Source: Posidonia oceanica (taxonomy: Eukaryota; Streptophyta; Magnoliopsida; Alismatales; Posidoniaceae). Taken from it: a stretch of DNA of 64,000 nt. The stretch lies in the NCBI GenBank assembly GCA_037176725.1, contig JAZBRS010000044.1, forward strand, positions 4,650,001 to 4,714,000, read 5' to 3'. Under the pieces are notes generated by a model, which saw nothing but the letters and a program-made list of their open reading frames with translations, was not told the origin of the DNA and ran no database searches. Both the position numbers and the translations under genes were made by a program. Numbering within the stretch: the stretch's first letter is position 1; each line of letters opens with the position of its first letter. Below are positions 8,172 through 64,000 of this stretch, one piece after another.

Positions 8172-8227
8172 GTTATACGCTGGAAAACCAGCATATAACG
8201 TTATAAGCGAGAGAACTCGTGTATAAC
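8172..8227. repeat. Type-1 dyad module in A2 U3, two hairpins
   Basis: GTTATACGC/GCATATAAC and GTTATAAGC/GTGTATAAC with 10-nt spacers, length 2 x 28 bp. The arm has changed from GTTGGACGC to GTTATACGC and the partner has changed to match. Confidence 0.8.
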
Positions 8228-8400: not shown

Positions 8401-8484
8401 GTTATACACTGCAAAGCCAACGGCCAACGTTAGCCACTGGAAAACCAGCGGCCAACGTTGTACGCGGGCAATTCAGCGGACAAC
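8401..8484. repeat. Type-1 dyad module in A2 U3, three hairpins
   Basis: Three consecutive dyads of exactly 28 bp: arms at 8401/8420, 8429/8448 and 8457/8476, each 9 bp, each with a 10-nt spacer. Confidence 0.8.
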
Positions 8485-25276: not shown

Positions 25277-25289
25277 AAGGAGGGGCATC
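25277..25289 (+). other. Polypurine tract of B
   Basis: AAGGAGGGGCATC immediately before the 3' LTR; near-identical to A (40024-40037). Confidence 0.8.
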
Positions 25290-26876: not shown

Positions 26877-27036
26877 TGTAGATACCCTGTTTTGGCACTC
26901 CCTTCATGATAGTGTAGTCTGTTGCATTAGGCCACCTCTAGAAGCTCTTTGCCCAACTCAAGTACTCTCAACTAACTTATTGACACTTGTCCCTGTGATT
27001 GAGAGGCCAGAATTAGCAAGTTTTGCATTTGAGTGT

Positions 27037-27094
27037 GTTGGAAGTTGGCTAGTCTAGCGTCCAACGTTGGACGCTGTGAATAATGGCGTCCAAC
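27037..27094. repeat. Type-1 dyad module, A U3
   Basis: GTTGGAAGT (27037), GCGTCCAAC (27057), GTTGGACGC (27066), GCGTCCAAC (27086); both spacers are 11 nt; 58 bp in all. The centre is the perfect palindrome GCGTCCAACGTTGGACGC. Repeated in the 3' LTR at about 40198-40255. Confidence 0.9.
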
Positions 27095-27267
27095 AACCTG
27101 GTTTTCTGTTTCCCCAAACTTGCCATATTTGGCTGAAATCAAATTTCATGTTTTTCCTCTACCAAGGGTCCTTTGACCAGTCAAGGCCTTAATTGGCTTT
27201 AATGGTCATTAATTAGCCACTTATTGAGGAATATTCTTTGATCCTGGCATCTTTGCCTCGGAGGGTC

Positions 27268-27325
27268 GTTAGACGGTGCATACTCCAGCGTCCAACGTTG
27301 GACGCTGTAACGGTCAGCGTCCAAC
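27268..27325. repeat. Type-1 dyad module, A U3, proximal to TATA
   Basis: GTTAGACGG (27268), GCGTCCAAC (27288), GTTGGACGC (27297), GCGTCCAAC (27317), 11-nt spacers. It ends 63 bp upstream of the TATA box. Repeated in the 3' LTR at about 40429-40486. Confidence 0.9.
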
Positions 27326-27388
27326 ACCTCTGAAACAGGAAAGTTGCTGACTTGGCCTTTGTATCCTTATTTGTTCCTCCCCCGCTTC

Positions 27389-27396
27389 TATAAAAG
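27389..27396 (+). promoter_or_regulatory. TATA box, A 5' LTR
   Basis: TATAAAAG in a short GC-containing context; same at 40550-40557. Confidence 0.8.
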
Positions 27397-28114
27397 CAGG
27401 GGTACCCCACTGGGATTGGGGACGGATCTGGGAGGGATTTCGAAGGGATTTTCGAGAGAGAAACACAATTTTGAGAAGAATTAGTGAGAGCAAGTAGAAA
27501 GTGTTTTGAGCTCGAATCTCGAGAGAAGTTATGTGGAGAAAGAGTTTTTTGAGAGAGCTTGAGTCATCCTCTGTCATCAGTGACATCATGTCGACACTTC
27601 TTGCATTCCATGCATAGACAAAAGGGGGCTTTCTTTAGTTTTCCTTTTCTTTTCATATCATATGTTTAATTTTGTAGTATAGTAAAGCATTTCGTTTCAC
27701 ATATTGTTGTAGTTAGGCATTCATACTTAGTTGCAACCGGAGGGATAAAACCCCTCGGGTAAGTATTCCTCCTTTCATTCTATGTTAATTCTCAATTTGC
27801 TTTGAATCATATACTACACTTTATTAATCCGCATCCTTAAAATCTATTTTGGAAGGAAAAGAAGAAAAAGAAGAAACTCACCAAGCACGGGCACCCTTGG
27901 GCAACGCTGGCGTTGTCCCAAGGTAGCTGAACCCGCAACCATATCACATCTCCCTAAGGCGTCTCGAGGGCCGGCGAAAGCGAACCGAGAGCGGCGATCA
28001 CACCAATTCTATCACTTGTGGAGCGACGGAGTTGGATACAAGAAGGGGACCCCGGGAAAGAGCAAATAGAACCAAAACAAGCCTCTTCTCCTCCAAAACC
28101 CCATATCCACAGAT

Positions 28115-28131: not shown

Positions 28132-29345
28132 CGGCTAAAAGTGCCCCCGTGCTAGGTGAGTGTTCTCTTCTTCTTCTTTCTTTTCCTTTGCAATCTTTCT
28201 TTTACTTTTGCGGATTTTTTTCGAGGTCGTGGCGAAATTCCTCATAGTGTTTTGAGGCACCACGACCCTCTTAGTATTTGTTCTTTAATTATGCACTAAA
28301 AAGCATGCTTCTATCTCTTATTTAAATAAGTCTGGTCTGTCAGTGCGTTAAAAGCTGTGCTGGGCAGCGTCCAACATAGGACGCAGTCTGTTCCAGCGTC
28401 TTACGCCTCTGGCCAGTTTTCTATTTTTTCTTGCAATTTCTTCTGTTAGGTTTTTATATGTTGAAAAATGTATGCAACCACCCCTTTCTTTTGTTCTAAT
28501 TCTCGGGAATAAAGGGGTGTTTGAGTAAAAAAAAATCTCTTGTTCTAGTTTTATAAAAAAAATATCTCCTGTTTGTGTGTTGGATGCTAGTCGTGATTGC
28601 GTCTTACATAAAACACCACCACTTGTTGTGTCTTACACATCTGGACAGGATTCATTCTGTTTTTAAAATCTTCCTTTGTTTTCTTTTTATAACTGACCCA
28701 AGGAACGAGGTGTGAGGTGATCGGCTTTGCCGTAGGGATCGGAGCCTTAATACTTGGGTGCTTTTCAAAAATCCAAATAAAACTCGAGTTTTTCATGTGA
28801 CTTGTATCGCCCTTGATTGGGAACTAATTTGATTGAGTCTCTTCTTGGATTACACAAAATAACCACTTAAATCCTGAGCACCTTTGTTACAAAGGACTTA
28901 AGAGACGTGTTTGTGTTGTCACTTGCTTTCAGAAGGGGCACTCTTCTTTCCCTTGCTCTATGTGAAATTAAGTTAGAATCCCAAGTCTAGATTTATATTC
29001 CTTCCCCTCCCTTTTGGTGGTTTGTTTATCTTGATTGTTATTATACGCGAGAGACCCGATCAATTCTGAGTACGTTGAGCTCTACCTCTATGGGGTAGGG
29101 ACCTAAGTGTGCTCAGGCTCCCCAAAGATTCTCAGGAGTTGAGATAGGGGCAGTACCAAAGAAGAGAAATATTTTGTCCTGTTTGTGAGGATCCATAGAC
29201 AACCCACGAAGGCAAACCATACCCAAGCCTTAAGGAACCTTGAGAGTCATGCAGGTTTAAAACACTAATAACAAAGCGAAATCCAAAAATCAAAACTTTT
29301 AATCACTGTTTGAAAGTGTTTTTGTGCAGCTCTCTGTTACATGGT

Positions 29346-29403
29346 GTTGGACGCTATAACTATCTGCGTCCTACGTTGGACGCAGAAAATATACGCGCCC
29401 AAC
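29346..29403. repeat. Type-1 dyad module in A leader
   Basis: GTTGGACGC/GCGTCCTAC and GTTGGACGC/GCGCCCAAC with 11-nt AT-rich spacers; exactly 58 bp. Confidence 0.85.
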
Positions 29404-29881: not shown

Positions 29882-29939
29882 GTTGGACGCTTTTGGGATA
29901 ACCGTCCAACATAGGACGGTATCTCTTCTAGCGTCCTAC
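29882..29939. repeat. Type-1 dyad module in A leader
   Basis: GTTGGACGC/CCGTCCAAC and ATAGGACGG/GCGTCCTAC, 11-nt spacers, 58 bp. Confidence 0.85.
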
Positions 29940-30102: not shown

Positions 30103-30160
30103 GTTGGACGCTATTTGTTCTTGCGTCATACATTGGACGCTACTAGTATCTACGTCCTAC
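30103..30160. repeat. Type-1 dyad module just before A gag
   Basis: GTTGGACGC/GCGTCATAC and ATTGGACGC/ACGTCCTAC, 11-nt spacers, 58 bp; ends 38 bp before the gag ATG. Confidence 0.85.
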
Positions 30161-31737: not shown

Positions 31738-34029
31738 GACTAAAGCTTGCTTCTCAAGAGTCTCTACTGATGGAGGCTACACTAGGGGCATTTCCCCAAA
31801 GTGTTGTAAATAGACTTTTCCTTCCTTGTTTCTGTATTTGTTTCTGCTAAAATATACCTAAATAAAATATCTTTTAATAAACAAATGAGAAGAAGATTCA
31901 CCACCCAAGCCTGGGAACTTGAGAACCGAATTGGGACGGACCATACTTAGTGGTTGGGGCATATCCGGGCAATGCCTATTGTTTGGCCAGAGAGGATGGC
32001 ACTAGGCTCGAGTATCCCTGGAATGCGCTGTACCTCAAACAGTACTACCCTTGACATGCACACAGAGCCACTAGATTGCCTGTGCTTGAGGACCTGCTGT
32101 TTCCAAAGCCTAAGAGTCATACCTTAGCTTCACCCCACAAACACTATATGGGAGAAGGAAAGGAAATGATCCAACACTGAGATAGAGGCAAAATCATAAG
32201 GGGCCTCCTCCCAGTTCATGAATAACAAGTCGACACACATCCCTCGAGTCAGACATGTTACCCTAGTACAAATCGGGTAGGTGTCTAAGGCCAAAACCTA
32301 GAAGCGCAGAGAGAGGGGAGTGTACCAAATAAAAGAGTGTCTCGGTTCGTCAAGGAACGAGTATCCATTGACCGAGCATGCAAACGGGGTGAGACTACTT
32401 GCCAGAATACTCAGAAAGAAAACAAAAAAAAGGGGTCAGAAAAGAAGGCAGCAAAGAAGCTGTCTATGTGCAAGAAAAGAAAGAGAGTGGAAAAGAAGGC
32501 AGTAAAGAAGCTGTCCAGGAGTCAAAATAAAAAAAAAACTGGGAAAATACTGAGCGCAATAGGAGTCAACCTTGAACTGGGAGGGGTATAGGCTTCAAAA
32601 TCTTCAACTGACATCTTAGGATAGGACATGGACTTTCCTTCACCCACATCCCGCACCGTACACATTAGAGGCAAGGGGCAGAAGCCTAGGTCTAGGGGCA
32701 GTTAGGTGCCAAAGCAAGCCTGTAGTATCCATGGCTCTGAGATTGCACAAGGGACCAAACTGTCAAGGTTTTCCAAGCATGAGGTCTCCTATTTCCCAAC
32801 TTCTTGGAAGATTCTTCTTCTCCTACAAAAATCCAAAAAAATGATAAAACAAAAAATCCAAAAAAATGATAAAGTCTAAAATCCAAAAAATGATAAAGTC
32901 AAAAATCCAAAATCAAAAATCCAAAAAATGATAAAATCAAAAATCCAAAAAAAATCATAAAAACCAAAAATCCAAAAAATAAGCAAAAGATCAAAAAAGA
33001 AATATAGAGTAAGGGTAAAATATACCCAACCAACACCACCTCATGAAACTGATAGCAAATCTGGCCGATGATAAAAAAATCTAGGGCACTAGCGACTCCG
33101 CATCGCTTTTTGACCACTCCTATTCAGGACGGTCACTTGGTACTTGCTTGCGAGTCAATACCATCTTCATGTAGACAACAAATTTGAGGCCAGATTTATT
33201 ATCTTCCATCTAAGTTTATTTCAAGTAATATAAGTACATATCTATTTATTATTTTTTCCTTGGACTAGGGGCAAGGGGCACCCTAGATGGTCTAATATGA
33301 TTTTGTTTAAGTTCCTCTACAGAAAACTACTGATATATGTTGGACGTCCAACGTAGCAAAAAAAGAAAAAAATAAATAAGAGTTTATTAGATGCAATCTA
33401 TTCTTACGTCATACATTTGACGCAACCTGTTTTGGCATCCAACATAGCAAAAAAAGAGAAAAATAAATAAGAGTTGTTGGACGCTATCTTTTCTAGCATC
33501 CTATGTTAGTCACGTAGACAATTGCGTCCAACGTTTTTCAGCAACTTAAGTTGCTGAACTTTGCTCATGGCCCACCAAATCCGTGGATAAATTGCCAAAC
33601 CAATTTCTACCAGTTCCAGAGGCTTCTACAAGTTGAAATACACGTGTGGGCGTTGGTTTCATATTTTTTAGACCTCTGGGCCATCTAGAATCACCTCTTG
33701 TTGTTTACATTAAGTTATTAACTTGTTAAAGCGCCAACAGTCGCGGAATTCAGAATTAAAGCTCGCAGGTGAAAATTTTCTTCATAACTCTGTCATTTGC
33801 ATATTATTACACGTAATTAAGCTTGTTTCAAGTTAAATTGAATTAAAAGCCATTATTTGGAGGTGCTCCCCCGATTATTGGTTATCTTAGTTCATTTTCA
33901 ACTTAGAGAAAGGTAAAGGAAAAAGAAAACGTTTGACAAGTTTGTTAAGTGTGCAGAAAATCTTTATCATTTATAAATCTAAGTTTTCTACAATATCACC
34001 GCGGCATACCCCTGAGGTACAAGTGCGGT
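31738..34029 (+). other. A post-gag region, non-coding
   Basis: AAGAAGCTGTC repeats (32440-32520) shared with B, an A-rich array of AAAAATCCAAAAAATGATAA units (32826-32990), and a degenerate cluster of type-1 dyads (33338-33545; for example TTAGATGC, 11 nt, ACGTCATAC). No gene seen. Confidence 0.75.
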
Positions 34030-37000
34030 CAAGAAGAAAAGAAAGCAACAAGAGAACAGCAACAACTAAGTGGCACTCTCCCCCTCGCCCTCGGGGGCTG
34101 AAGGAGGAACTGAAGGAGGAACTGAAGAAGGAACCGAAGGAGGAGCCGAAGGAGGAGCTGCAAGGGGCTGTACCGACTGATGCACTGAGCCACTTGAGGA
34201 AGCCTGTGACGCAGCTTGAGACCCCCCAACCGGTGGACGATGGCAAACAACGGAGGAGGACAAACTTGGCGACCAGTGGAAACACTACCAAGCATGGCCT
34301 CTCGTCGGTAATGCATCGCCTTGGTCTCGAACTGAGCTGCCATCGCACGATCCATATCTCATTCCTGCAAGAAAAGACAAAGGAGAAGCAAGCCATTAGC
34401 ATAAGCAAGCATATGAATTTAGAAAAGCAGAAGAGCAAGTTATACCTTTTGAGCCACCTCCAGCTGCCTCCTCAGCTCGACAATCTCTACAGTCGAATCA
34501 GTCACCGGTGGGGGTTGCTGCTGCGCAGCAAGCCAGGCAATCTCAGCAGTCCTCTCCTCAGCAAGCCGACGTACCTCCTCCAGCTGCTCCTCAAGGCGTA
34601 AAGCATGCTCCAAGGCACCTGCCGTAGTTTGCTCCAACTCCTGCTGAAGATCGTCAATCTGCAAAAGCCAGAACCATAGTCAGAATTGAATCAAGAAATA
34701 TAAAGGGAAAGTATACTGCTATACTTACCATACTCTGAAGGTGGGAAATCTCCTCGGCATGACCCAGTGGAGGGGCAGAACTAGTCGAAGGCTGCAAAAG
34801 CAAAGAAGGCATAATTAGCACAATTTTCAAGGCAAACAACTATGCTATAAAAATAAATGCAAACCTGAGAAGTAGAGGCTCACAGATGCTCAACCTCCTC
34901 AGTCAGCTCAGCAACGCGCCTAACCAGGTCACGCTCACGCTGACTATACTCGTCAGTAGTCCTCAGCTGCCAGGGGCAAGGTCCAAACAAGTTAGCTGTC
35001 AAGAAATACAGGCATTACAAATTGAAACATAAAGCTAAATACTCACCGCTATCTCCATCTGAATCCAGTGAGAGCGGACGGACTCCTGCAGCTCGCCTAT
35101 AGCCATCGCTGCCACATCTGGAGCGGTGTCACCCATGGGAAGGTTCGATCGCCCTAGAAAATGGGAGCGATGGAAGACCATGAGCTCGCTAAACTGGTCA
35201 TCCATCCACCTGGCCCAAGCCAGCTCGTCCTCAACAGTCGCATCAACAGGAGTGGTGGAGCCGCCTCGAACCCAGTCTAGCAACTGTGGACCGTAGGTGT
35301 CAACCCAGTGGTGAGCACGTCCACCTCCCCCTGTATCTTGCGCCAAACTCGGAACGGGTGAGCCTGAGGCTGAATCTGCTGGCGCCCCAACTGCCTAAGT
35401 GCCCGGCTGATCTGCTGGAAGTGGCAGTGGTTCCAGCAGTGGAGCCAGATGTCTCGGTAGAAAACTGTCTAGTCTCGAGCTATCCTGGGGACATCCTTGT
35501 GCTCCTCCTTGGCGTAAGGATGCCCGATCACCTAAAAAGCAGACAGGGAATCAGTAAACCAAAAGAAGAATAATATATCAGTAGGGGCATATTACCTGGG
35601 CAGGAACCAGCATCTCAAAGAAGAGATGCCTGACATAGCGATGGCCAGTGGCCACCTCAGGTGCATGAGCGGCCTGACTCCAGTGCAGTCCATGCGGGAA
35701 GGGCATCCCCGCCTCAAGAACTGAAGGTGGGATGGGCCTCATGAAAGTAAAGTGGTACCATACCCACATTTGCAAGTAAAAAGAAAGCAAATCATCAGTC
35801 GAGCATGCAAAGTAAATAATATTTGAAGCTTAAATAAGCAAAGAAAGTTTATATACATGAAAGAATGGCAGGTTCCCGCCAAGCTGATGGGAACTACCAT
35901 CGGAAAACTTGAAGAGCACGGTGTACAAGAACGACAGGCTCGCGGCCCCCCAAGCGTACTCCCCTACTCGATCTAAGTCGGCAAGTAGGGGCAGGAACAC
36001 TGTCGAAACCTGTGAAGTAGCGTGGCTGAATAGCAGGTCCCCAAATAGAACTAAAAGGAAAGGCACGGAGCTGCTGATCCGCGTCCTCTCCAGGCTCTGT
36101 AGCAATCTCCCAGGAGTCCTTGACGCGCTGAACCGCCGAGGTAGTAACATAAAGGCGGAGCCCGTACATGACGACCGGTCTCCCCACCAACTCCGCCATC
36201 ATAGAGGTGTAATCGGAGCGTACTGGGCCAGTCACCGGACGTCCCATCACCCGTAGGCCAGTCAGCCAGGCCATGTCCTCCAGCGAAAGGACGAACTCGC
36301 CAACCTGGGTCACGAAAGAGCTCGTATGAGGGTGGTAGCGCTCTACTGCAGACTCTAGAAGTCCCAACTCAAGCTAAAAAAGAGGAATGGATAGGAAGTG
36401 TCCAAACCCCATCTGCCGAAGCCGCTCGTGCTGGAAAGGCTCCAACATCCGGTAGCACATGAGGACCTGACCCCAGTAACAGCGCACGACGGTGGGAGCC
36501 CGACTCTGCAAGAGAGAGAAGAATTGTCAGACAAAGTTCACAAAAATAATATTTGAAATTAAATGGAAATGTGGTTACTTGTCTCCTAGCTGCCAGTGCA
36601 GCTACCGCAAGCTCGGCCCGGGCTGCATCCCTGTGCGGTGCCGAAGCCTGCAACTCGTCGTGGGGTATGTGAGCCCGCATAAAATCTAGAGGAGCACCAA
36701 CATCGCCCTCTGCCTCCCGTCGAACAAAGTCCTGGATGCTCACATACTAGCCGTCATCCTCAACCATCCCGGCAGCAGCAGCAGGGACCGCCTCGCGAAC
36801 TACCTCCTCTGACCCCGACTCCTCTGAATCCTCGTCCGAAGGAATGAATGACTCCAAGCCTGAACTCCCGGAGCCACAAGTATCCGCAACCGAAGTTGTA
36901 CCCGGAGTCGCCCCCTCAACCGGTAGTGGGCCCTCTGTAGCCATCTCTGGAGCACCACGAACCTCCCCGCCTTCCTGTGCCTTGATCCCAACTACCAGCA

Positions 37001-37488: not shown

Positions 37489-37546
37489 GTTGGACGCTAC
37501 AGGTGTTTGCGTCATACGTTGGACGCAGTAAAGAATAGCGTCGTAC
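37489..37546. repeat. Type-1 dyad module upstream of the PMD gene
   Basis: GTTGGACGC/GCGTCATAC and GTTGGACGC/GCGTCGTAC, 11-nt spacers. It sits on the 5' side of the antisense gene. Confidence 0.88.
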
Positions 37547-37566: not shown

Positions 37567-37624
37567 GTTGGACGCAATACATTCTAGCGTCATATGTTGG
37601 ACGCAAAAGGATATAGCGTCCAAT
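37567..37624. repeat. Second type-1 dyad module upstream of the PMD gene
   Basis: GTTGGACGC/GCGTCATAT and GTTGGACGC/GCGTCCAAT, 11-nt spacers; starts 78 bp after the start of the preceding module. Confidence 0.88.
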
Positions 37625-38105: not shown

Positions 38106-38127
38106 TTTTAGTTCTATCCCTTTGACC

Positions 38128-38395: not shown

Positions 38396-38429
38396 CCAGT
38401 TCGACCCCCTTGGGCAACCCCCTTGGCAA

Positions 38430-40037: not shown

Positions 40038-41273
40038 TGTAGATACCCTGTTTTGGCACTCCCTTCATGGTAGTGTAGTATGTTGCATTAGGCCACCTCT
40101 AGAAGCTCTTTGCCCAGCTCAAGTACTCTCATCTAACTTATTGACACCTGTCCCTGTGATTGAGAGGCCAGAATTAGCAAGTTTTGCATTTGAGTGTGTT
40201 GGAAGTTGGCTAGTCTAGCGTCCAACGTTGGACGCTGTGAATAATGGCGTCCAACAACTTGGTTTTTTGTTTCCCCAAACTTACCATATTTGGCTGAAAT
40301 CAAATTTCGTGCTTTGCCTCCACTAAGGGTCCTTTGACTAGTCAAGGCCTTAATTGGCTTTAATGGTCATTAATCAGCCACTTAATGAGGAATATTCTTT
40401 GATCCTGGCATCTTTGCCTCGGAGGGTCGTTAGACGGTGCATACTCTAGCGTCCAACGTTGGACGCTGTAACGGTCAGCGTCCAACACCTCTGAAACAGG
40501 AAAGTTGCTGACTTGGCCTTTGTGTCGTTATTTGTTCCTCCCCTACTTCTATAAAAGCAGGGGTACCTCCACTGGGATTGGGGATGGATCTGGGAGGGAT
40601 TTCGAAGGGATTTTCGAGAGAGAAACACAATTTTGAGAAGAATTAGTGAGAGCAAGTAGAAAGTGTTTTGAGCTCGAATCTCGAGAGAAGTTATGTGGAG
40701 AAAGAGTTTTTTGAGAGAGCTTGAGTCATCCTCTGTCATCAGTGACATCATGTCGACACTTCTTGCATTCCATGCATAGACAAAAGGGGGCTTTCTTTAG
40801 TTTTCCTTTTCTTTTCATATCATATGTTTAATTTTGTAGTATAGTAAAGCATTTCGTTTCACATATTGTTGTAGTTAGGCATTCATACTTAGTTGCAACC
40901 GGAGGGATAAAACCCCTCGGGTAAGTATTCCTCCTTTCATTTTATGTTAATTCTCAATTTGCTTTGAATCATATACTACACTTTATTAATCCGCATCCTT
41001 AAAATCTGTTTTGGAAGGAAAAGAAGAAAAAGAAGAAACTCACTAAGCACGGGCACCCTTGGGCAACGTTGGCGTTGTCCCAAGGTAGCTGAACCCACAA
41101 CCATATCACATCTCCCCAAGGCGTCTCGAGGGTCGGCGAAAGCGAACCGAGAGTGGCGATCACACCAATTCCATCACCTGTGGAGCGATGGAGTTGGATA
41201 CAGAAAGGGGACCCCGAGAAAGAGCAAATAGAACCAAAACAAGCCTCTTCTCCTCCAAAACCCCATATCCACA
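40038..41273 (+). mobile_element. A 3' LTR (1236 bp)
   Basis: Same start and end as the 5' LTR, with only a small number of differences by eye. Followed by the duplication TTTGT (41274-41278). Confidence 0.95.
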
Positions 41274-51493: not shown

Positions 51494-52222
51494 ATGGAGG
51501 CCTATCGACAAAATCAAGAGCGCATCAATATGACATCTGCCTCAACCTCTACCTCTACGGAACAACTAGGCACGGGCCCGAATGGGTTCTTCCTTGAAGC
51601 TTCAACTGCACACACAGAAGAGCCATACGACTCCATGCAAGCAAGGGCTCGCCGAGTATTTCCCCATACATCAATACCGTACAGTTATTCTCTCGGGGAC
51701 CACACTCTTGTAGTACTTGCTCTGAACTACACCATGGGCCAGTCATCTGAAGAAGAAGAGGAAATAAGCCACTCCCAACCATGGAGTACCCTGCATGAAT
51801 GCACGCTTCCTGAGGAAACCTCCCACATAGTGCCGCCTACATCGACTGCTTCCAATCTGTCTGAGGAAGCAGCTAATGAGATCTATCAAATCCTGGCACG
51901 GCACCACCCCTCACTTAGGAGCCCACAAATTCCATTCGTCCACCAACCTTCTTCCCTAAACTACCACTAAAACCCGCTAATCACGCCCACTCACACACAC
52001 ACACCATACCACCAAACCCCACTATAAACTTCCCTACCCAAAGTTCATTCGCACAATACCACACAACGCCAACCCATCCTTCCATACACCAAACCATGCC
52101 ATCACACACGACCAACTACCAACTGTAATATCCAAGAACATCACACAACCTACCACCAACCACAATATCCCGGAACATACCCAGCAACCCACCACCAAAC
52201 ACAATATCCTGGAACATCATAC
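51494..52222 (+). pseudogene. gag: gag of C, N-terminal part, cut by D
   Basis: ATG at 51494; residues resemble the B gag N-terminus (Ser/Thr-rich start, GPNGF, then PHTSIPYSY against PHVSIPF in B). A stop at 51968-51970 is followed by Pro/His/Tyr/Gln-rich sequence like the B linker up to 52222, where D is inserted. The capsid domain is not in the window. Confidence 0.8.
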
Positions 52223-53220
52223 TGTAGTAATCCTGAAATTCTGATCGTCCATGCACGATGCCAAAGCTCGCGTGCACCAATCAAAATAGGTTCACTATAT
52301 GCGGTGGGATCCGAAGGAAGAAATTTGACTCGAAAACGCTGGCAAAAGAAAAAAAGAAATGATAAGACAAATCGGAGTCGCCACCAGGTCTATTAAGTTG
52401 GGAGACAAGGAAAACTGAGGGTAATGCAAGAAAAGACATGCAAAACCAGATGCAAAGAGATGCGATGCAACACAATGCGATGCTATGCTATGCTATGACT
52501 CGTGCCTAGGATGAAGGAAAGGTCATTACGGACCAAGAGAAAGGGCAAGGACTCCTATTACGCATGGGGAAGGTGTTAGGCACCCCCGATACGTCTGAGA
52601 GTCGGTCTTTCTTAGGCAATCTCGCTCGCTAATGCAGGAAGATGCTTGCCTAATGCCTAAATGCAATGAATGTCTGATTGCTATGCATGGAAAATAAATG
52701 TGCTATCTATGTGCTCAGCAGCACTGCTAGTGTTCCGAACTGGGCGAACCCTGGTTCGTGAGAACTCCTAGGCAGTAAGCATTATTGCCCTAATGCAAAT
52801 GCAGGCGATAAAACAAAACTGCGGGGAAAACCAGGCAATGCAAGTGACATGCAAGGGGTGAACCAAAGCAGGCGCAGAAAACGGTGCAAACAGCATGGAA
52901 ACGGTGTGGAAAATGATGCAAAAGTGGTGCAGAAAACGATGCAAGCACGGGAAATGATGCAAAAGTAGGGAAAACGATGCAAGCACGAGAAACGATGCAA
53001 AAGCACGGAAAACGATGCAAGCGAGTGAGATGCAAAAAAGAAGGCGAAAGCAAATCCGGGGCGAAAACCACGAGAAAGCGTGCAAGGCGAGGTACCAAAC
53101 CAAAACAGGGGTCAGGTAGCATGCATGGGGGTAGTAGTATGTACAAGAAGCAATAAAACACGGAAAACGGCGAATGAAACCAAATCAGCGTTTTAAAATC
53201 AGGTTCAACCAACTGCAAGC

Positions 53221-53277
53221 GTTGGACGCAGCAATACCTGCGTCCAATGTTGGACGCTGGCATTGCTGGCGTCCAAC
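53221..53277. repeat. Type-1 dyad module 1, D LTR
   Basis: GTTGGACGC/GCGTCCAAT (10-nt spacer) and GTTGGACGC/GCGTCCAAC (11-nt spacer). Confidence 0.9.
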
Positions 53278-53461
53278 ACCTGCTGGAGGCAAACAACATG
53301 CACTTTTTAAAAAAAATGATGCATTCTAGCTATATGAATGTGATGCAGATGTAGAAATGCAGTAGAATAGGTGCATGACATGCAGGGCAAATAGGACAGC
53401 AAACCAGAAGCAGATTCAGAGCAAGATGCAAGCAAAGATTAGCATTTTAAACAAGCAAGTT

Positions 53462-53519
53462 GTTGGACGCCCGAGAGCATGGCGTCCAACGTTAGATGCT
53501 AGAGGGACTGTCGTCCAAC
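53462..53519. repeat. Type-1 dyad module 2, D LTR
   Basis: GTTGGACGC/GCGTCCAAC and GTTAGATGC/TCGTCCAAC, 11-nt spacers, 58 bp. Confidence 0.9.
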
Positions 53520-53690
53520 ACAGGCCAAAGGACAGCATAGCAAATCAGCATACAGATGATGAACAAAATATGTAAGCATGCATTTAGGCTACTGTAAGTA
53601 GGTATAAGCTAGTCATGCAAGCATAGGATATGAAAAATCCAAGAAAAACAACATCTGTAAAGCATGTAAGGAAGAAAACCCAACCAGAGC

Positions 53691-53748
53691 GTTGGACGCG
53701 AGCTGAGCCAGCGTCCAACGTTGGACGCAAGGAACAGTAGCGTACAAT
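53691..53748. repeat. Type-1 dyad module 3, D LTR
   Basis: GTTGGACGC/GCGTCCAAC and GTTGGACGC/GCGTACAAT, 11-nt spacers, 58 bp. Confidence 0.9.
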
Positions 53749-53920
53749 GCACTGGGAGGCACAAACGAATAAAAACTCTACATAAAACTAGCATATGAAC
53801 TATAAAAGCTGAGGAGCAGTTGCTATGAAGGCTAAGCAAGCATATAAGCATAGAAATCATGCAAACGTGGGGATCAGAGCATCATGCAAACACTTAAAAC
53901 CAGAGTAAATGAGCAGCGAC

Positions 53921-53978
53921 GTAAGACGCCGGTAGCAGCAGCGTCCAACAAAGGACGCTGAAGCCCCCAGCGTCCAAC
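53921..53978. repeat. Type-1 dyad module 4, D LTR
   Basis: GTAAGACGC/GCGTCCAAC and AAAGGACGC/GCGTCCAAC, 11-nt spacers, 58 bp. Confidence 0.9.
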
Positions 53979-54302
53979 ACATGCAGAATGCAAACCTACC
54001 TGCAAAGGGGGAGCTCAGCTCTAAACCCCACTTAAACATGCATGCAAGCTACTGATGACATGCCAGATCAAGAAAAAACACTCATACCAAGCATATAATC
54101 CATGAGAAGCAAGTAAAAAAGAGTATGCAAAGGAACAAAGGGGTAAAAACCCAAGAAAATTAGCATGCAACTTGAGAGGAGATTAGCAAGCCTAAACATG
54201 GTTGTCATAGGGGCTAGGCATCACTAAATATGTATGGATCAAGTATAAATCTCAAAAAGAAGCAAGATACACGCATGGCAGCAGATATAAGCTAGCAGAT
54301 AT

Positions 54303-54360
54303 GTAGGACGCTAGATGAACCAGCGTCCAACGTTGGACGCGGCTCACTCCATCGTCCAAC
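54303..54360. repeat. Type-1 dyad module 5, D LTR
   Basis: GTAGGACGC/GCGTCCAAC and GTTGGACGC/TCGTCCAAC, 11-nt spacers, 58 bp. Confidence 0.9.
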
Positions 54361-54550
54361 ACAGGCAGACAGCAGAATGAACTAAAGCATGCAATATTGA
54401 TCCAAGCAAGGATCAAAACAAGGAAGCAGGCATGGCATAGCATCTGTAAACATGTAAGGAAAGCATGCAGCATAGACTCATAAAAGGCAAGCACAGTAAA
54501 GCATGGCGAGCTTTAAAGCAAAAACAAAGGCAGATATGGTATAACAGGGT

Positions 54551-54607
54551 GTTGGACGCCCGATCTTGTAGCGTCCAACGTTGGATGCACCAGGCTATGC
54601 ATCCAAC
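54551..54607. repeat. Type-1 dyad module 6, D LTR, with paired change
   Basis: GTTGGACGC/GCGTCCAAC (11 nt) and GTTGGATGC/GCATCCAAC (10 nt). In the second dyad both arms changed so that pairing is kept. Confidence 0.9.
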
Positions 54608-55438
54608 AAGGTGAGGATCCTCCTGGCCAAGAATAGCGGCCAAATCGGCCCAAAACTTCAAACAAACTTGCTTGGGAGCAAGTGTGGCCGACGACAAGCA
54701 TGGTGGTATACTTGGTGCCAGAAATAGGTGGGTGGATTGCTCCACCCACCTCCTCCTCCTCGCGGCCGGAAAGCCAAGGCGGGGAGGGGTGTGTGCTGTG
54801 CTAAAAGGCATGGAAATCATCTAGGAACATTCCTACACACATGCACGAGCTATGGGGATTGAGAACCTATCTTGGTGCGGCCTGAAACGGTGGTTTGCGT
54901 TCTTCACTGGCGCTGCGGAAGCTTGCGGCAGGCGAACTCCGGCGAGGTTGCAGAATGTGTAGGACGCACGAGAGAGGGAGCCAGCGGTCTGGGAGTGAAG
55001 GTGGGAGATCGCTCTTTGCTCTGGTGTCGCTCAATTCTCTCTCGGATCGGTGTGGTGAGCTGTGCAATGTCGAGAAGGTTGCTGGTTTTCATGGTTTTGT
55101 TTGTTGGGTTCTGGGGATTGGCAGCGGTTGTGGAGGTCGTGGCAGGGTTGTGGCAGGCTTGGGTGTGAGTGGGAGGCCACGAGGCATGGCAAGCAAAGGG
55201 CATGGGCTTGCCAGAAGGTCGCCGAAGTCGTAGGTGTCAGACAACGGCCGCAGTGAGGGTGGAGTGAGCGGGAAAGGGGCTGGGGCGGAGGAGACGACTA
55301 GTAAGTGGAGTTACTTCGGCTTGGAAGGTAGTGGATGGCTTGGAGTGGATGAGAGGATGGGTAGTAAGTGCGTACGGGCGGCGGAGAGGACGGGAGGTGA
55401 GCTGAAGGTGGCGGAGCAACCATTGCAGCTCTCGGGCC

Positions 55439-55525
55439 GTTGGACACTAGTGCAGAACGCGTCCAACGTTGTACGCTAGCATAGAGCACGTCCAACGTTG
55501 GACGCTGCCTGTGCCAGCGTTCAAC
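55439..55525. repeat. Type-1 triple dyad module 7, D LTR
   Basis: Three dyads in exactly 87 bp (3 x 29): GTTGGACAC/GCGTCCAAC, GTTGTACGC/ACGTCCAAC, GTTGGACGC/GCGTTCAAC, all with 11-nt spacers. Confidence 0.9.
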
Positions 55526-55745
55526 ATGCCCAGAAAGCCAAAGGCTAAAATGGACTTGGGCTTGGCCTTAAAAAAGATTTAAAGAAGTGTAAAAGGCTTG
55601 GATTGAGGTTTTGGGGTTTAGGTGGGGTTTTAGATTTGATTTTGGGTAGAAATGGGTTAGTCTGAAAAAGAGAGCCAACCTAGAGTCCAAGCAAGCCTGC
55701 AGGAGAAACCACCAACTTCCAAGCTGTCAGAATGGGGTGTCTACA

Positions 55746-55759: not shown

Positions 55760-56215
55760 AGCGAGGTCAAGCGTAGCGAGACCGCTACTCAGGGTAGACA
55801 AGACACCCTGCCTGACACCACTAGGAGCGCAAAATTGCTGTAGGCGTGAGTCATTTACCCGGCAGATGCATCGGAAATCATGACTCAGAGCCACAATGCA
55901 GACGCAGATGCGAATGCTGATGCTGATGCTGATGCAATGTGTGCCAGTGCGGATGCAATGCATGCCGATGCAGTTATTTATCATGCAATGCTGTTAGTAA
56001 AAGAATGCGGTGCTGATGTGGAAGGGATGCAAAGAAAGCTGTAGTGCAATGTATGAGTTCGGTGATTAGTCCGAGCTCACAAAAGTGATGCCTGACAAGT
56101 CTGACGGGCTTGGCATCCGAGCAGTTAGAGCTGCTAGCCCAACAAGCAAAGGGGCTAGACAATTTAACGGTTGTCGATTGAGTAGTTAGGGCTGCCAGCC
56201 CGCAAGGGAACAGAA
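55760..56215 (-). other. D interior next to the 3' LTR
   Basis: Shares its first 25 bp with H (9941-9965), then a GATGCTGATGC-type hexamer run (55905-55980). No gene. Confidence 0.7.
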
Positions 56216-57996
56216 GCAGCTTGTCCTCGCTCGAGGAAACTGGCAAGAAAGAGAAAGGGGGAAGGCAAATGTGGGCAACGTCCGCCTGGAGCGAAGCCAC
56301 GCAAGGGCTGATCCTCGAACGAGGATACAGGGAAGGACTCCGAGCATACGGGGTCTGAGAAGAGCTTGTCCTCGCCCAAGGAAGTAAGCAAGAAAGGGAG
56401 AAAGGGGGAGGGCAAGCGTGGGCATCGTCCACCCGGAGCGAAGCCACGCAAGGGCTGATCCTCGCATGAGGATACAGGGAAGGACTCTGAGCATACGAGG
56501 TCTGAGAAGAGCTTGTCCTCGTCCGAGGAAGCAAGCAACAAAAGGAGAAAGGGGGAGGGCAAGCGTGGGCATCATCCGCCCGGAGCGAAGCCACGCAAGA
56601 GCTGATCCTCGCATGAGGATACAGGGAAGGACTCCAAACATACGGGGTCCGAGAAGAGCTTGTCCTCGCCCAAGGAAGCAAGCAATAAAAGGAGAAAGGG
56701 GGAGGGCAAGCGTGAGCATCGTCCGCTGGAGCGAAGCCACGCAAGGGCTGATCCTCGCACGAGGATACAAGAAAGGACTCCAAGCATACGGGGTCTGAGA
56801 AGAGCTTGTCCTCGCCCAAGGAAGCAAACAAGAAAGGGAGAAAGGGGGAGGGCAAGCATGGGCATCATCCACCTAGAGCGAAGCCACGCAAGGGCTGATT
56901 CTCGCATGAGGATACAAGGAAGGACTCCAAGCATACAAGGTTCGAGAAGTGGTTGTCCTCGCCCGAGGAAGCAAGCAAGAAAAGGAGAAAGGGCGAGGGC
57001 AAGCATGGGCATCGTCCACCCGGAGTGAAGCCACGCAAGGGCTGATCCTCGCACGAGAATACAGGGAAAGACTTCGAGCATACGGGGTCCGAGTAGAGCT
57101 TGTCCTCACCCGAGGAAGCAAGCAAGAAAGGGAGAAAGGGGGAGGGCAAGCGTGGGCATCGTCCGCTCAAAGCGAAGCCACGCAAGGGCTGATCCTCACA
57201 TGAGGATACAGGGAAGGACTCCGAGCATACGGGGTCCAAGAAGAGCTTGTCCTCGCCTGAGGAAGCAAGCAAGAAAAGGAGAAAGGGGGAGGGCAAGCGT
57301 GGGCATCGTCCGCCTGGAGCGAAGCCACGCAAGGGCTGATACTCGCACGAGGATACAAGGAAGCACTCCGAGCATACGGGGTTCGAGAAGAGCTTGTCCT
57401 CGCCTGAGGAAGCAAGCAAGAAAGGAGAAAGGGGGAGGGCAAGCGTGGGCATCGTCCGCCCAGAGCGAAGCCACGCAAAGGCTGATCCTCGCACAAGGAT
57501 ACAGGGAAGGACTTCGAGCATACAGGGTCCGAGTAGAGCTTGTCCTCGCCCGAGGAAGCAAGCAAGAAAGGGAGAAAGGGGAGGGCAAGCGTGGGCATCG
57601 TCCGCCCGAAGCGAAGCCACGCAAGGGCTGATCCTCACACGAGGATACAGGGAAGGACTCCGAGCATACGGGGTCCAAGAAGAGCTTGTCCTCGCCTGAG
57701 GAAGCAAGCAAGAAAAGGAGAAAGGGGGAGGGCAAGCGTGGGCATCGTCCGCCTGGAGCGAAGCCACGCAAGGGCTGATACTCGCACGAGGATACAAGGA
57801 AGCACTCCAAGCATACGGGGTTTGAGAAGAGCTTGTCCTCGCCTGAGGAAGCAAGCAAGAAAGGAGAAAGGGAAAGGGCAAGCGTGGGCATCGTCCACCC
57901 AGAGCGAAGCCATGCAAGGGCTAATCCTCACATGAGGATACAGGGAAGGATTCCGAGCATACGGGGTCTGAGAAGAGCTTGTCCTCGCCCGAGGAA
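56216..57996. repeat. Tandem array, about 12 units of about 147 bp
   Basis: Units begin at GCTTGTCCTCGCCC (for example near 56362, 56510, 56657, 57098, 57245, 57391, 57537, 57685, 57831, 57977). Each unit holds dyads: GCTTG.CCTCG..CGAGG..CAAGC, ATCCTCG-CAC-GAGGAT, and a GGACTCCG/CGGGGTCC pair. Unit length near 147 keeps frames open on both strands over hundreds of codons, so these frames are repeat artefacts. Confidence 0.9.
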
Positions 57997-58665
57997 GCAA
58001 GCGTGGCCTCCATGCGGATGGAGACAGAAAAGGCTTGTCCTCACCCAAGGAAGCAAGTGGGGGATTCCACGCGGACGGAATCCAAAGGGGGCTTGTCCTC
58101 ACCCGAGGAGGCAAGCGGCAATCTGATTCTCGCCCGAGGAAACAGACAGGGGACATCGTCCGCACGGAGCAAAGTCACCCGGGGGCTTGTCCCCGGCCGG
58201 GGAAACAAGCGGGTCTGATACTCGCCCGAGGAAACAGGAAGGACTTCGTTCGCACAGAGCGAAGTCGTAGGGGGGCTTGTCCTCGCACGAGGAAGCAAGC
58301 AGGCTTGTCCTCACCCGGGGAAGCAAGCAGCCGGGATCCCGTCTGCACGGAGTGAAGTCACGTGAAAAGAGAAAAGGCTTGTCCTCGCCCGAGGAAGCAA
58401 GTAGAGCGAGCATACGCCTATCCTCACCTGAGGAATAAGCGGGCCTGATTCTCGCCCAAGGAAACAAGGAAACTCCATCCGCACGGAGCTGCACAGGGCT
58501 TGTCCTTGCACGAGGAAACAAGCGAGTCTGATCCTCGCCCGAGGAAACAGACAGGGGCTCTATCCGCATAGAGCCAAGCAGGGCTTGTCCTTGCCCGAGG
58601 AAGCAAGCGAGCCTGACCTCGCACGAGGAAACAGGCGAAGGACTTCGTCCGCATGGAGCGAAGTC
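57997..58665. repeat. Short hairpin array, outer arms vary around a fixed core
   Basis: Core CCTCGCCCGAGG is enclosed by matched arms that differ between copies (GCTTG/CAAGC or GTCTG/CAGAC), alternating with dyads such as GACTTCG/CGAAGTC, GGATTCC/GGAATCC and GGCTCTAT/ATAGAGCC. Confidence 0.85.
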
Positions 58666-59474: not shown

Positions 59475-60382
59475 CTAGCGCATGACCCAGATAAGGTGGT
59501 ATTCCACACCCCTGGTGAATCCTGGCAGCACCACGAGTCGCATGTCACGGGCATCGAAGAAGACGGTGAAGGGTTCAGCTGCGGATGGGATGATTCGCCA
59601 AGTCATTGCAACATCCGTCAACTCAGATAGCTTATGGTACTCCTCTAGCACGCTCTTGATGGTCCTTGCATGGCTACTACTGTAGTATGTTTCGATGGCA
59701 TGCTTTTGAGGGCGTAGAAGATCCATCTCCAGGTGTGCAGCTAGCTTGATCTGCACAAGTGCTCCGCAGCCGTGGAAATGGCAGCAGCGGTGTGCGACGC
59801 AGTCCAGTCCGCGGTAAGTCTCTGCAAGGACGACTGGTGCCAGGTCAATCTGTCGGGTCACCACTGTGAGTGCAATTTCAGCAATCTCGATTGCAACTGT
59901 CATCCGGCCATGTGTGAAGATCAGTTCGCCTAGAAAGTGGGTGACGAATCCCCGGAGCCACAGCTCATCTCCGAGTTCAGCATGCTTTTCCATAATTCCA
60001 TCAAAGTATGCTAGGCGAAGCAGGGGCGTGGGCCCACTAGTGCAGATTAGTCTTTGCTGGCAGCTTTTGGTAGAGAGTACCCGTCGCGCCTCATGAAGAC
60101 CATAGGTCCCATGATCCTAGAGAAGCTGCAAATCCGACGCACTTCCTCCAGCGTGGGAGTCAGCTCTGTCCTACCGAAGCGAAAGACATGATGCGCTGGT
60201 TTCCAGAATCTTGTAGCAGTGCACAGGAGATGCCGGCTTACTTCGACGTCAGCTGCCTTCAGAAGCTTGGAAGGGATACCCCAAGTGCGCAGCTTCTCGT
60301 GGTTGGTTTCAGTGAGTTTGCCAATCCACTCTCGCCGGGCATCCGAGCAATGCATGGGAGTGACCAGAGTTGGATAACCCAT
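59475..60382 (-). pseudogene. DUF7745-like gene downstream of integrase, frameshifted
   Basis: Same strand as pol. The upstream piece (60382-60047) contains RREWIGKL, TATRFWKPAHHVFRFGRTEL and TPTLEEVRRI, the pattern I know from DUF7745/plant-mobile-domain-like proteins (wide aromatic pair, then a 'TPTLEE' helix). The second piece (59993-59475), in another frame, has LAETYRGLDCVAHRC and GCGALVQIKLAAHLE, matching the later part of that family, and ends at a TAG. The frame change between 60047 and 59993 and internal stops make it broken. Function in the element is unknown. PMD in A is antisense, this one is sense. The family name is from memory and unverified. Confidence 0.65.
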
Positions 60383-61880
60383 TGCGCGGGAGGGAGAATG
60401 TAGGCTGCCGGTGCAGAAATCTTAGGTACTTGTAAGCAAGGTTGTAGTTCATCAGATCAGATATAAGCATGTAACCACTGGCTGATAAAGATGTAGATTT
60501 CAAAGTTAGCAGTTTAGCATGTTCAACAATTAGCATTCAGAGTGCAGATATTAAGCATGTTCAGACAAAGGCAGTTCTGCTTGCAGGAAAGTGGTTGGTC
60601 GGAGCTCTGGACCAGTGCAACTTGAAGAAGGTCGACGTGTGCTTGACAGAAGTACTGTCTCAGTGTCGAGTCAAGTTTTGTAGAGCAGGAAGATAGAAGG
60701 AGGGGAATGACTGATGCTGTGCATGCATAGATGGTTTATGATTGATATGCATAGACATGTGCCTGATTTACAATAGATGCTGTAGATGTGTGCATGATTT
60801 TTGCTTATATGCTGTAGCCCTCAGGATGTGGAGTGCTTAGCGCCTGCTGTAGAGGAAGAGAGGGGTCCTTGACTCACTGGACTCTACTCAAACTCTTTAC
60901 TTGCTGGTGGCGCTTAGGAAAGGGTTATTTGCAGTGTGAGAGTGGTGGGTAGTGAGGACAGGCTCCAGGCTAAACTCCCAAGGACCTACACCTACTTTTT
61001 TTGCTTCTTTTTGCTCCCTCATAGGCATGTAGGTTTCCCCTACCCCTAACTTGGAGGCAATGGGCACCTGGTTGAAGCTGGGGAGTTGCTTGCTAGGCCT
61101 TGCTAGGTTTATAGGCTCTGTGGGGCTTGTGTATTCCCTAGGCACAAACTTTAGTCCCTCTCTAAGATAGGTAAAGGGAGCGGGATCGCGCTGCTTGCTT
61201 TTTTCTTTCTGGAATTGACTTTTGTCTTTCCTCCTTTTTTCTTGCTTCTTTTTTTTTTCTTTTTCTTTTCTTCTTTTTTCTTTTGTGCAGGCTTCCACTG
61301 TCCCTAGCTTAGAGGTAATGGGCGCCTGGGTTTGAGATGGGTTTGAGGCTCCCAGGTGCGAAATGATGGACCATCTCCGAAGCAGTTCAGAGGAGCGGGG
61401 TTATGCTACACGCCTCTATCTCTAGGGCCTGCTTCTGCCTTCGCCTGCTATTTGCCTTTTCATTTATGCCCATGCTCAAACATATTCTTTTATGGCTCAC
61501 ACTCTTGCTCACACCCTACCATTTTATCTCCCTTGGGAGGTGCAAGTCCTAGGGGTTTGGTTATTTCGCCTGTTCTCATTTGAAGGGTGGCTCCCTCACT
61601 AGCTAAGACGCCTAAGTAGTGTCGGGTGAGGTAGGGTAGACTCCTTCCAGAGCAGGCAAGCACATCCGATTTCATCATCGGGCCAAATGCAATGTATGAT
61701 TTTTTCTGAGAATTTGTAGGTTTTTTGCTTGAGATATGCTGAAAGAGGTGGAAATGCAGGGATATGTGTAGAGAGTGTGAGAATGCAGAGGGACAAGATT
61801 AGGGTGTAGAAGGATGTACAAGGGTAATGAGAATGCAAAGGATGGGTCGAGAAAGAACGCTCTGCAAGGCAAGGGCCGGT
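60383..61880 (-). other. D region between DUF7745-like gene and integrase, non-coding
   Basis: T/C-rich stretch (61195-61290) and two diverged copies of a block with ACTTGGAGGCAATGGGCACCTGG (about 61048-61072 and 61305-61330). No gene seen; a Lys-rich minus-strand frame (61298-60897) is low complexity. Confidence 0.65.
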
Positions 61881-64000
61881 CTATTGATAGTACTTCTTTA
61901 GGTAGCATGTATTGACTAGCTCTAACTGCCCAGTCTGGTCCATGTCCTCAAGAATTGCTGCACCACCTAAGAATGCCTGCTTGACCACAAAGGGGCCGCG
62001 CAGTTGGGTTGGAATTTGCCTCGACCGTCTGGCAGGTGGATGGCTTGCAAGACGAGATCTCCTGGCTAGAAGCTCTTGGGCCACACCTTCTTCAGGTACG
62101 CTCTTGCCATCCGCTTCTGGTAGTAGCCAGCGTTGTGCATTGCTTGCAATCTGTGCTCATCAATCAGGTTGAGCTGGGCGCAGCGGTCCTCGACCCACTC
62201 TGCTTCTTCCAGCTCTGCTTCTCGCAGGATTCGCAACGAAGGGATCTCCACTTCGACAGGCAGCACTGCCTCCATGCCGTATGCCAGCGAGTACGGGGTG
62301 GCTCTTGTCGAGGTCCGCACTGATGTCCTATACACCTAGAGTGCGTACGGGAGCTTGTCATGCCAGTCTTTGTGGGTTTCTGCCACCTTCTTCATGATTT
62401 TCACAATGTTTTTGTTGGCAGACTCCACTGCTCCATTCATCTGCGGCCGATAAGGTGAGGATCTATGATGCTTGATCTGGTACTTCTGCAGGTACTCCTC
62501 GATCCTCTTTGCAATGAAGTTCGAGCCGTTGTCAGAGATGATTGCATGCGGGACCCCATACTGGGTGACAATGTTGTTTCTGATAAACCTCTCTGTCACC
62601 ACGGCCGTGACCGCCTTGTAGGAGGTTGCTTCCACCCACTTAGTGAAGTAGTCTATCGCTACTAGAATGAAGCGATGACCATTCGATGTAGCAGGGTATA
62701 TAGCGCCGATGACATCAATCCCCCAGGTGGACAAGGGCCATGGCGAGGACATGCTATGCAATTCCTGCGGGGGAGCATGCATAAGATTACCATGGATTTG
62801 GCAGTTGTGGCATCTACGCACAAACTGGCAGCAGTCTGCCTCCATGGTTGACCAGAAGTAGCCTTGCAACATGATCTTCTTGGCCAGTAGTACACCATTC
62901 ATATGCGGACCATAAGTCCCTGCATGAACTTGGAGCATTAGCGTGTCAGCCTCTGGCTTGCTCAAGCAGTACAGGAGCATCTGACTGTATGATCTTCTGT
63001 ATAGCTGCCCTGCCCCTAACACATACTTCGACGCCAGACGTGCCAAAGTTCTTCTATCTGCTGCTGAGGTGTCAGGCGGGTCGTTGCCAAACTCCAGGAA
63101 GGCTTTGATGTCACAATACCAAGGCTGCTCTTCTACTGGATCTGCCTCCTCTATGCTCATGCAATGCGTAGGCTGCTCCATGCAAGTAACTGATACATCC
63201 ACTGCTCGGTCTTCAGGTATACTGAGCCAAGATGCCAAGGTTACTAGCACGTCTGTGTATGCGTTCCTTGCTCTGTTCATGTATGAGAAGCGGATGCTTG
63301 TAAATTCTTCTATCAGCTTCAGCAAGTGTTCGTGATATGGCACAAGCTTTGGATCCTTTGTTCTCCAATCGCCATTCACTTGGGAAATCACCAGCATGGC
63401 ATCGCCGTGCACATGCAGCTTCTGCGCTTCATGCTCGAGCGCGACCTTCAATCCCAGAATGCATGCTTCATACTCTGCTTCATTATTAGTGCACTTGAAG
63501 GTCAGCTTCCTTGCGAAGGGGATCATCTGCCCCTGCAGCGTGGTCAGCACTGCGCCTATGCCTCGACCCTTATTGTTGACAGCGCCATCAAAGTACAACC
63601 GCCATTGCTCTGGGTCTTCAGGGTCTTTCTCCTCAGAGTCCTCCATTGCAAAGAGGATGTCCTCATCCGGGAACTATGTCTGGAGAGGCTGGTATTCAGG
63701 CAAGGGAAAGTCTGCGAGGTGATCCACCATGGCTTGGCCCTTCATGGCTCGCTGCGTGACAAAGGTGATGTCATACTGAGACAACAGTACCTGCCACTTG
63801 ACGCATCTGCCTACCATTGCTGTCTTCTGGAAGAGAAACTTGATGGGGTCATGCCTGCAGAGAAGACGAATTGGGTACGCCATCATGTAATGCATTAGTT
63901 TCTGTGCAGCCCAGAAGAGGGATAAGCAGGTCTTCTCCATTGTGCTATACCTAACTTCGCAATCATTGAATTTCTTGCTCAGGTAATAAATTGCATGCTC
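61881..64000 (-). pseudogene. pol: pol of D: RT/RNase H end, second RNase H, integrase (partial, decayed)
   Basis: From the window edge: YYLSKKFNDCEVRYSTMEK and LFWAAQKLMHYMM, the end of reverse transcriptase and first RNase H (64000-63674). A stop follows at 63674. The second RNase H (63620-63220) shows LYFDGAVNNKG, NNEAEYEACILGL, DAMLVISQVNGDW and YTDVLVTLAS with its acidic residues. Integrase has a zinc module (H..H, CHNC, near 62800), then GIDVIG, ISDNGS and NGAVESAN, so the D-D-E triad is intact. A TAG at 62338-62336 replaces a Trp-like position; the same frame continues to 62066 (SLAYGMEAVLPVEVEIPS). The C-terminal end (62084-61881, GPFVVKQAFLGGAAILEDMD) lies in another frame. Two RNase H domains are a known TAT-lineage trait. 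Confidence 0.92.

Follow-up and report, generated by a model that had tools for sequence, protein, structure and literature searches.

A 64-kb stretch of Posidonia oceanica DNA (the window, i.e. the whole stretch that we analyzed) carries LTRs in which two short inverted arms recur in modules, at an almost constant distance from each other and with spacers of varied sequence. The question raised by this locus is what has maintained the distance between the arms while the bases between them changed. An earlier note, made from the sequence alone, had proposed either selection on the geometry of the arms (paired half-sites or a stem-loop) or a process that replaces the spacers.

Abundance and spacing of the dyad unit

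The dyad unit, GTTGGACGC-N10/11-GCGTCCAAC, was found 41 times in the window when up to 3 mismatches over both arms were allowed: 34 units have a gap of 11 nt and 7 a gap of 10 nt, with 1 extra unit at gap 14. Ten dinucleotide shuffles of the window yielded a mean of 0.1 units over all gaps from 5 to 21, and a chance origin of the units was therefore rejected. Exact copies of the arms number 22 (GTTGGACGC) and 18 (GCGTCCAAC), and eight exact pairs are separated by 11 nt.

The search for exact arms was extended to the whole genome (2,962,952,704 bases, 2.96 Gb), where the counts obtained for such repeats may be lower bounds. It revealed 82,515 units with N11, 13,952 with N10 and 67 with N12, as well as 179 for all gaps of 0-9 nt together and 1,677 pairs with gaps of 13-38 nt; the reversed pattern, used as a control, gave 0 matches each time. 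Among the N13-38 places listed, 27 of 50 had a gap of 38 nt, and these were mostly two consecutive N10 units (manual count). The spacer-length histogram suggested in the earlier note thus has its peak at 10-11 nt, with 12 nt nearly absent. The claim that the spacer measures 11 nt in nearly all cases holds in that N11 dominates, but 10 nt is a second permitted length, accounting for about 14% of the N10 and N11 units.

We also analyzed 24 loci of 10 kb, 20 of them picked for containing matches and four at arbitrary places. The 20 match-centred loci contained 41 exact N11 units and 3 exact N10 units, the remaining exact pairs lying at gaps of 38-40 nt, as doublets give. Three of the four arbitrary loci lacked units and the fourth had two. 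Arrays in the window and the 24 loci together comprise 117 doublets, 6 triplets and 33 units standing alone. Most of them are 58-bp doublets, and they occupy the U3 part of LTRs as well as non-coding sequence elsewhere in Ty3/gypsy-type elements. The motif occurs in non-homologous surroundings, since 142 modules fall into 12 context clusters, some of which belong to one element.

Elements carrying the modules

Two elements of the window, D and A, carry the modules discussed below. The features of D are as follows (the modules, given without strand, come from the arm search, and the ORFs from profile matches).

52222..55745, minus strand: D LTR, 3′ LTR of a Ty3/gypsy-type element (TGTAGACACCCC at 55734-55745 on the minus strand, and copy comparison)
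53221..53277: D module 1, doublet, spacers of 10 and 11 nt
53462..53519: D module 2, doublet
53691..53748: D module 3, doublet
53921..53978: D module 4, doublet
54303..54360: D module 5, doublet
54551..54607: D module 6, doublet, spacers of 11 and 10 nt
55439..55525: D module 7, triplet
59478..60421, minus strand: two overlapping ORFs, sense in D, with weak PMD (plant-mobile-domain) and DUF7745 matches
62336..63673, minus strand: ORF with RNase H-like (RVT_3), zinc-binding and integrase core matches

On the minus strand, the D LTR begins with TGTAGACACCCC next to a purine tract, and its end on the 52221 side matches the end of a copy in locus L008, where the abutting sequence is one that we take to be primer-binding-site-like. 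No such sequence follows the end of the D LTR in the window, and the integrase (62336-63673) is placed on the upstream side; D is therefore a 3′ LTR. All seven of its modules described earlier were recovered (six doublets and one triplet, 15 units in total). They are rich in CpG, with an observed/expected ratio of 1.18 within the modules versus 0.50 between them. A TATA box was not located in the D LTR.

The Tat lineage of Ty3/gypsy elements is distinguished by an extra RNase H domain directly before the integrase. An additional RNase H in this position was found in the D element only, in the ORF 62336..63673 (E-values of 1.1e-20 for RVT_3, 1.4e-6 for Integrase_H2C2 and 2.5e-14 for rve), and the predicted domain order fits the Tat lineage. 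In protein searches, the best matches listed for the integrase reached 48-55% identity, its named relatives being from plants, and those listed for gag were environmental pieces; neither search showed a close named relative. The PMD (3.4e-4) and DUF7745 (4.2e-5) matches of the ORFs at 59478..60421 are both under the curated cut-off. The D 3′ LTR adjoins a tandem array with a period of approx. 147 bp (56212-58002; 12.2 copies, 89% matches), which has a palindrome of its own, TCCTCG-N2-CGAGGA, present at 10 places within 56224-58532.

The features of A and of its sister LTR family, A0, are listed below (modules again without strand).

26877..28111, plus strand: A 5′ LTR, 97% identical to 40038-41273
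27037..27094: A U3 module, distal doublet
27268..27325: A U3 module, promoter-proximal doublet
27389..27396, plus strand: TATAAAAG, putative LTR promoter (TATA box) of A, from reading of the sequence
28347..28404: A leader module, doublet
28579..28607: A leader module, single unit
29346..29403: A leader module, doublet
29882..29939: A leader module, doublet
30103..30160: A leader module, doublet
33415..33532: A internal modules, a single unit (33415) and a degenerate doublet (33476)
35833..36373, minus strand: two ORF pieces with PMD profile matches, antisense in A
37489..37546: A internal 3′ module, doublet
37567..37624: A internal 3′ module, doublet
40038..41273, plus strand: A 3′ LTR, with modules at 40198-40255 and 40429-40486 (LTR pair comparison)
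8172..8227: A0 module with GTTATACGC-type arms, N10
8401..8484: second A0 module, triplet with GTTGGCCGC-like arms, N10

The modules named for A in the earlier note were likewise present. The LTRs of this element are 1.24 kb long, and the promoter-proximal U3 doublet ends 64 bp ahead of the start of TATAAAAG. The two antisense PMD matches (2.3e-11 and 1.7e-11) are over the curated cut-off. A search using 120 relatives of the D protein gave no RNase H or integrase match in A, so this element may be non-autonomous; it is provisionally placed among the Ty3/gypsy-type elements from its LTR type alone. The internal 3′ part of A also contains four adjacent tandem arrays (37800-39036), with periods of 39, 28, 34 and 31 bp.

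Divergence of arms, spacers and flanks

Among the 211 N11 spacers of the window and the 24 loci (arms with up to 3 mismatches), 169 are distinct, and the existence of only a few spacer types, which the earlier note had named as a finding that would speak against its view, was rejected. The spacers are not fully random at their ends (0.30-0.41 bits at positions 1, 2, 10 and 11) and, at the same module position in related copies, they are recognizably one sequence differing by substitutions. The description of the spacers as having nothing in common between copies thus needs correction for corresponding positions. Size changes inside units, compared in six pairs of D-type LTRs, amounted to 1 nt or 29 nt, the latter being the gain or loss of a unit. 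With substitutions and such steps, a special process replacing the spacers is not needed. Their random look reflects the age of the modules, in which little besides the arms and the spacing has been retained.

In D-type LTRs (6 copies) the divergence of arms, spacers and flanks was.117,.303 and.255, respectively, which corresponds to an arm/flank ratio of 0.47 (0.37-0.57), the spacers keeping pace with the flanks. Since labelling of arms by a consensus favours conserved arms, the units were also defined on one clade and their divergence taken from the other; the ratio was then 0.69 (0.54-0.85), and 0.77 (0.42-1.16) in the reverse comparison. The arms of D-type LTRs thus look constrained. The corresponding values for A-type LTRs (11 rows) were.087,.235 and.089; here the flanks are as conserved as the arms, with a ratio of 0.95 (0.64-1.42), and it is the spacers that are unusually fast, diverging about 2.6 times faster than the flanks (26877-27325 and copies). 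Selection on paired half-sites, as put forward in the earlier note, is accordingly borne out by the limit of 10-11 nt and by the slow arms of the D type, whereas the A type does not agree with it.

These data also bear on the view that the modules have no current function and are leftovers of unit amplification (of a 29-bp and perhaps a ~230-bp tandem repeat) in successful elements, the spacing being kept because few founder units were copied. The gain and loss of units in 29-nt steps, the A-type arms that are no slower than their flanks, and a weak similarity between some inter-module stretches (3 comparisons, z above 3) would all be expected from such a history. It does not readily account for modules in non-homologous contexts, with spacers that are almost all different and still 10-11 nt long, for the slow D-type arms, or for CpG kept within the modules and not between them, and we regard it as unlikely.

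A regular distance is found between modules as well. Of 91 pairs of neighbouring arrays less than 600 bp apart, many of them counted repeatedly through related copies, 60 are separated by 160-191 bp (32 of these by 171-174 bp), 15 by 20-35 bp and 6 by 321-326 bp. The modules might act as barriers that position nucleosomes between them, a role compatible with protein binding, and the 60 pairs with 160-191 bp agree with this; however, many of the 91 pairs are related copies, and a decayed ~230-bp tandem repeat would yield identical spacing. We regard nucleosome phasing as a very improbable explanation.

Alternative arm versions

Besides the consensus, the arms occur in alternative versions, GTTATACGC and GTTGGCCGC. 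The promoter-proximal modules of A and A0 (4 and 6 copies, respectively) have alignable flanks; all four arms read GGA in A and ATA in A0, and both spacers are 11 nt long in A but 10 nt in A0. A third version, GTTGAAAGC with GCGTTCTAC, was observed in head-to-tail repeats with N10 spacers at another locus (L010:2640-2760).

In the genome, matched ATA arms were found 4,168 times, with TGGTTTTCCA-like spacers among the places listed; in A0 units such spacers lengthen the potential stem. Mixed, i.e. unmatched, arms were found 1,454 and 1,410 times on the two strands (2,864 in total), and many of the mixed-arm places listed share one inherited unmatched unit. If the arms were independent, about 10,600 mixed units would be expected by our own arithmetic, although the comparison of mixed with matched arms is confounded by family amplification. 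Given the matched units on the one hand and the amplified mixed units on the other, the arms are thus associated, yet their complementarity is not obligatory.

Stem-loop or DNA site

Inverted arms in non-coding transcribed parts of an element could also form an RNA or single-strand DNA stem-loop (9-bp stem, 10-11-nt loop), which would act in the transcript, in packaging, stability or translation, or serve as a source of small RNAs. Palindromes of maize Sireviruses coincide with small RNAs, according to the available part of the report (PMC10760457), and the stem-extending TGGTTTTCCA-like spacers of A0 point in the same direction.

Covariation of the arms gave divided results. In the window set, from which 9 of 54 units had been dropped (four 3′ LTR duplicates and five weak matches judged to be due to chance or to the array), we counted 11 double-sided pair changes against 5.2 expected (P 0.007). 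After removal of similar spacers, consensus-arm N11 units (n=58) showed no excess, with 5 compensated changes versus 4.6 expected (P 0.49), N10 units (n=20) had 7 versus 3.8 (P 0.06), and the pooled set, reduced from 312 units to 78 by spacer similarity, had 12 versus 7.3 (P 0.04). A relaxed set of doublets gave 28 versus 12.3 for all 91 units and 12 versus 5.6 for the 53 N11 units; this set includes register shifts, its N9 and N12 units being shifted N10 and N11 units, which weakens its value for the stem-loop. When doublets were restricted to N10 and N11 (n=22), the arms agreed across the units of a module about as well as within a unit, which speaks against pairing within the unit (at least 3 rows are spurious or shifted and the z-scores are only indicative).

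Other properties of a stem are weak or lacking. On the sense strand G-U wobbles were not preferred to A-C mismatches (96 versus 115; 49 versus 82 in the A type and 47 versus 33 in the D type), in a comparison from which 64 units without orientation were dropped and in which identical units were counted once. In a set reduced from 292 units to 64 (N11) and 25 (N10), the N11 spacers were weakly self-complementary (113 pairs versus 97.2 expected, P 0.03) and the N10 spacers were not (34 versus 35.0). A loop would also hardly be able to distinguish 11 from 12 nt. The stem-loop, also raised in the earlier note, retains the covariation seen in the window, pooled and relaxed sets, but the sharp length limit, the lack of a G-U preference and the uncompensated consensus-arm N11 units weaken the hairpin as the main explanation, and we consider it rather unlikely.

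We give slightly better than even credence to the alternative in which the modules serve as cis-regulatory half-sites in the DNA, recognized by a dimeric protein that acts on the LTR promoter. Each arm would be one half-site of a candidate protein site, and two inverted half-sites, one helical turn (10-11 bp) apart, would face the same side of the helix; a dimer could then grip both while ignoring the bases of the spacer. A dimer on DNA is suggested by the strict one-turn spacing combined with free spacer letters. Gal4-type binuclear-cluster factors bind as dimers to a dyad of this kind (CGG-N11-CCG), with inverted half-sites and a free spacer of fixed length; the likeness to the units described here would be a mechanical analogy only.

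The modules, mostly doublets, are placed in U3, ahead of the LTR promoter, and elsewhere in non-coding sequence of the elements, where a sequence-specific protein, element-borne or host-borne, may bind them. A specific trans factor is suggested by this location before the promoter and by the concerted switch of arms that separates the sister families A and A0. Once bound, this protein might switch on the LTR promoter or prevent its silencing, as VANC proteins do for VANDAL DNA transposons; the available text of PMC5735166 and PMC10398659 provides a precedent for factors borne by transposable elements that have arrays of motifs.

The half-site reading is favoured by the almost exclusive use of 10- and 11-nt spacers, by D-type arms that diverge less than both spacers and flanks, by the promoter-proximal U3 doublet of A and the CpG content of the D modules, by the joint change of four arms and two spacers between aligned flanks, by the amplification of units with unmatched arms, and by the absence of a G-U preference. 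Against it stand the A-type arms, which diverge like their flanks, the covariation of arms in several sets, as a stem would predict, and the matched ATA arms, commoner relative to mixed ones than independence gives; moreover, VANC motifs, as far as the available text describes them, are arrayed in one orientation, whereas the arms of the dyad are inverted.

The PMD-like ORFs of A (antisense) and of D (sense, below the cut-off) are candidate sources of such a factor. Scanning of ORFs yielded no matches other than PMD and DUF7745, with no VANC-like protein among them, and the D element continues beyond the window. The DOWN motif CATGCAGTTT, linked to the PMD proteins MAIN and MAIL1, as given in the part of the literature available, does not resemble the arms; the same literature on these Arabidopsis proteins calls their contact with chromatin unknown. 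A more specific form of the half-site reading, which we advance as a speculation and judge distinctly unlikely, is a family-specific code of half-sites at a distance of one helical turn, recognized by a protein that the retroelements themselves carry (e.g. a PMD-like product) and that protects or activates LTRs. It would be an LTR counterpart of VANC/VANDAL, with free spacers and with modules phased at ~230 bp; a change in the specificity of the protein would be followed by a joint switch of every half-site in a module.

Comparison with known systems

The dyad is a real, very abundant and highly ordered cis-element, whose function we infer. In the literature searched we found no description of the motif; the letters of the arms occur in 381 papers, and none of the 15 listed is, judging by its title, about plant retrotransposons. 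Viral contigs contained it at one place in all, approximately the chance expectation that we estimate for 18 fixed bases. The earlier statement that no described element has this layout is nevertheless too strong, since palindromic boxes form arrays ahead of the TATA box in LTRs of Sireviruses (Ty1/copia; Bousios et al. 2010, PMC2829016, in the part available).

Those boxes, as presented there, resemble the modules in being family-specific palindromic motifs, repeated many times within the upper half of the LTR, before the TATA box, and rich in CpG, with extra copies in non-coding internal parts. The A-type LTRs (module end 64 bp before TATAAAAG) and the CpG ratios of the D modules agree with this description. 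The carriers differ: Sireviruses are Ty1/copia elements, whereas the dyads are found in Ty3/gypsy-type elements, the end of pol in D being ordered RVT_3, zinc-binding, integrase core. The Sirevirus boxes described have a CGG-CCG core, which one box in the accessible table of PMC2829016 also lacks, whereas the consensus arm contains neither CGG nor CCG; they have few or no intervening bases, in contrast to the free 10-11-bp spacer; and the dyads form tandem doublets with a 28-29-bp period. The dyad thus belongs with the palindromic repeated motifs of plant LTRs and differs from them in element class, half-site, split one-turn architecture and paired units.

The VANC-target arrays of VANDAL (PMC5735166, PMC10398659, available sections) are likewise short, family-specific repeats of non-coding motifs, with units that are gained and lost and that diverge together; they differ in element class and in the single orientation of their motifs, which here are inverted at a fixed distance. 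VANDAL elements themselves encode VANC, an anti-silencing protein that brings about DNA demethylation. Retand/Tat elements resemble the elements of the window in the long region that separates pol from the 3′ LTR and contains tandem arrays as well as antisense ORFs, but their extra domain is TRP28 instead of a PMD-like one, and LTR dyads are not mentioned in the accessible part of PMC11963269.

With close to 100,000 exact copies and a sharp 10-11-bp spacing, the dyad would be comparable to a mutational scan of a dimer site carried out by nature. Should a protein recognize it, the half-site, the tolerated spacing and the change between sister families can already be read from the copies. It would then become testable how plant retrotransposons keep their promoters available despite silencing, and whether LTR elements, too, take part in arms races of the VANC-VANDAL type.

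Other repeats in the window

A direct repeat pair (11512-13027 and 25284-26797; 95.8% identical, 13.77 kb apart) probably represents the LTRs of a further element beside A. Two long inverted stretches (692-6457 and 14857-20656), with pieces 75-91% identical, resemble LTRs of 5-6 kb, and one of them contains a ~30-bp tandem repeat (5572-5801) with GGCAC/GTGCC-like dyads.
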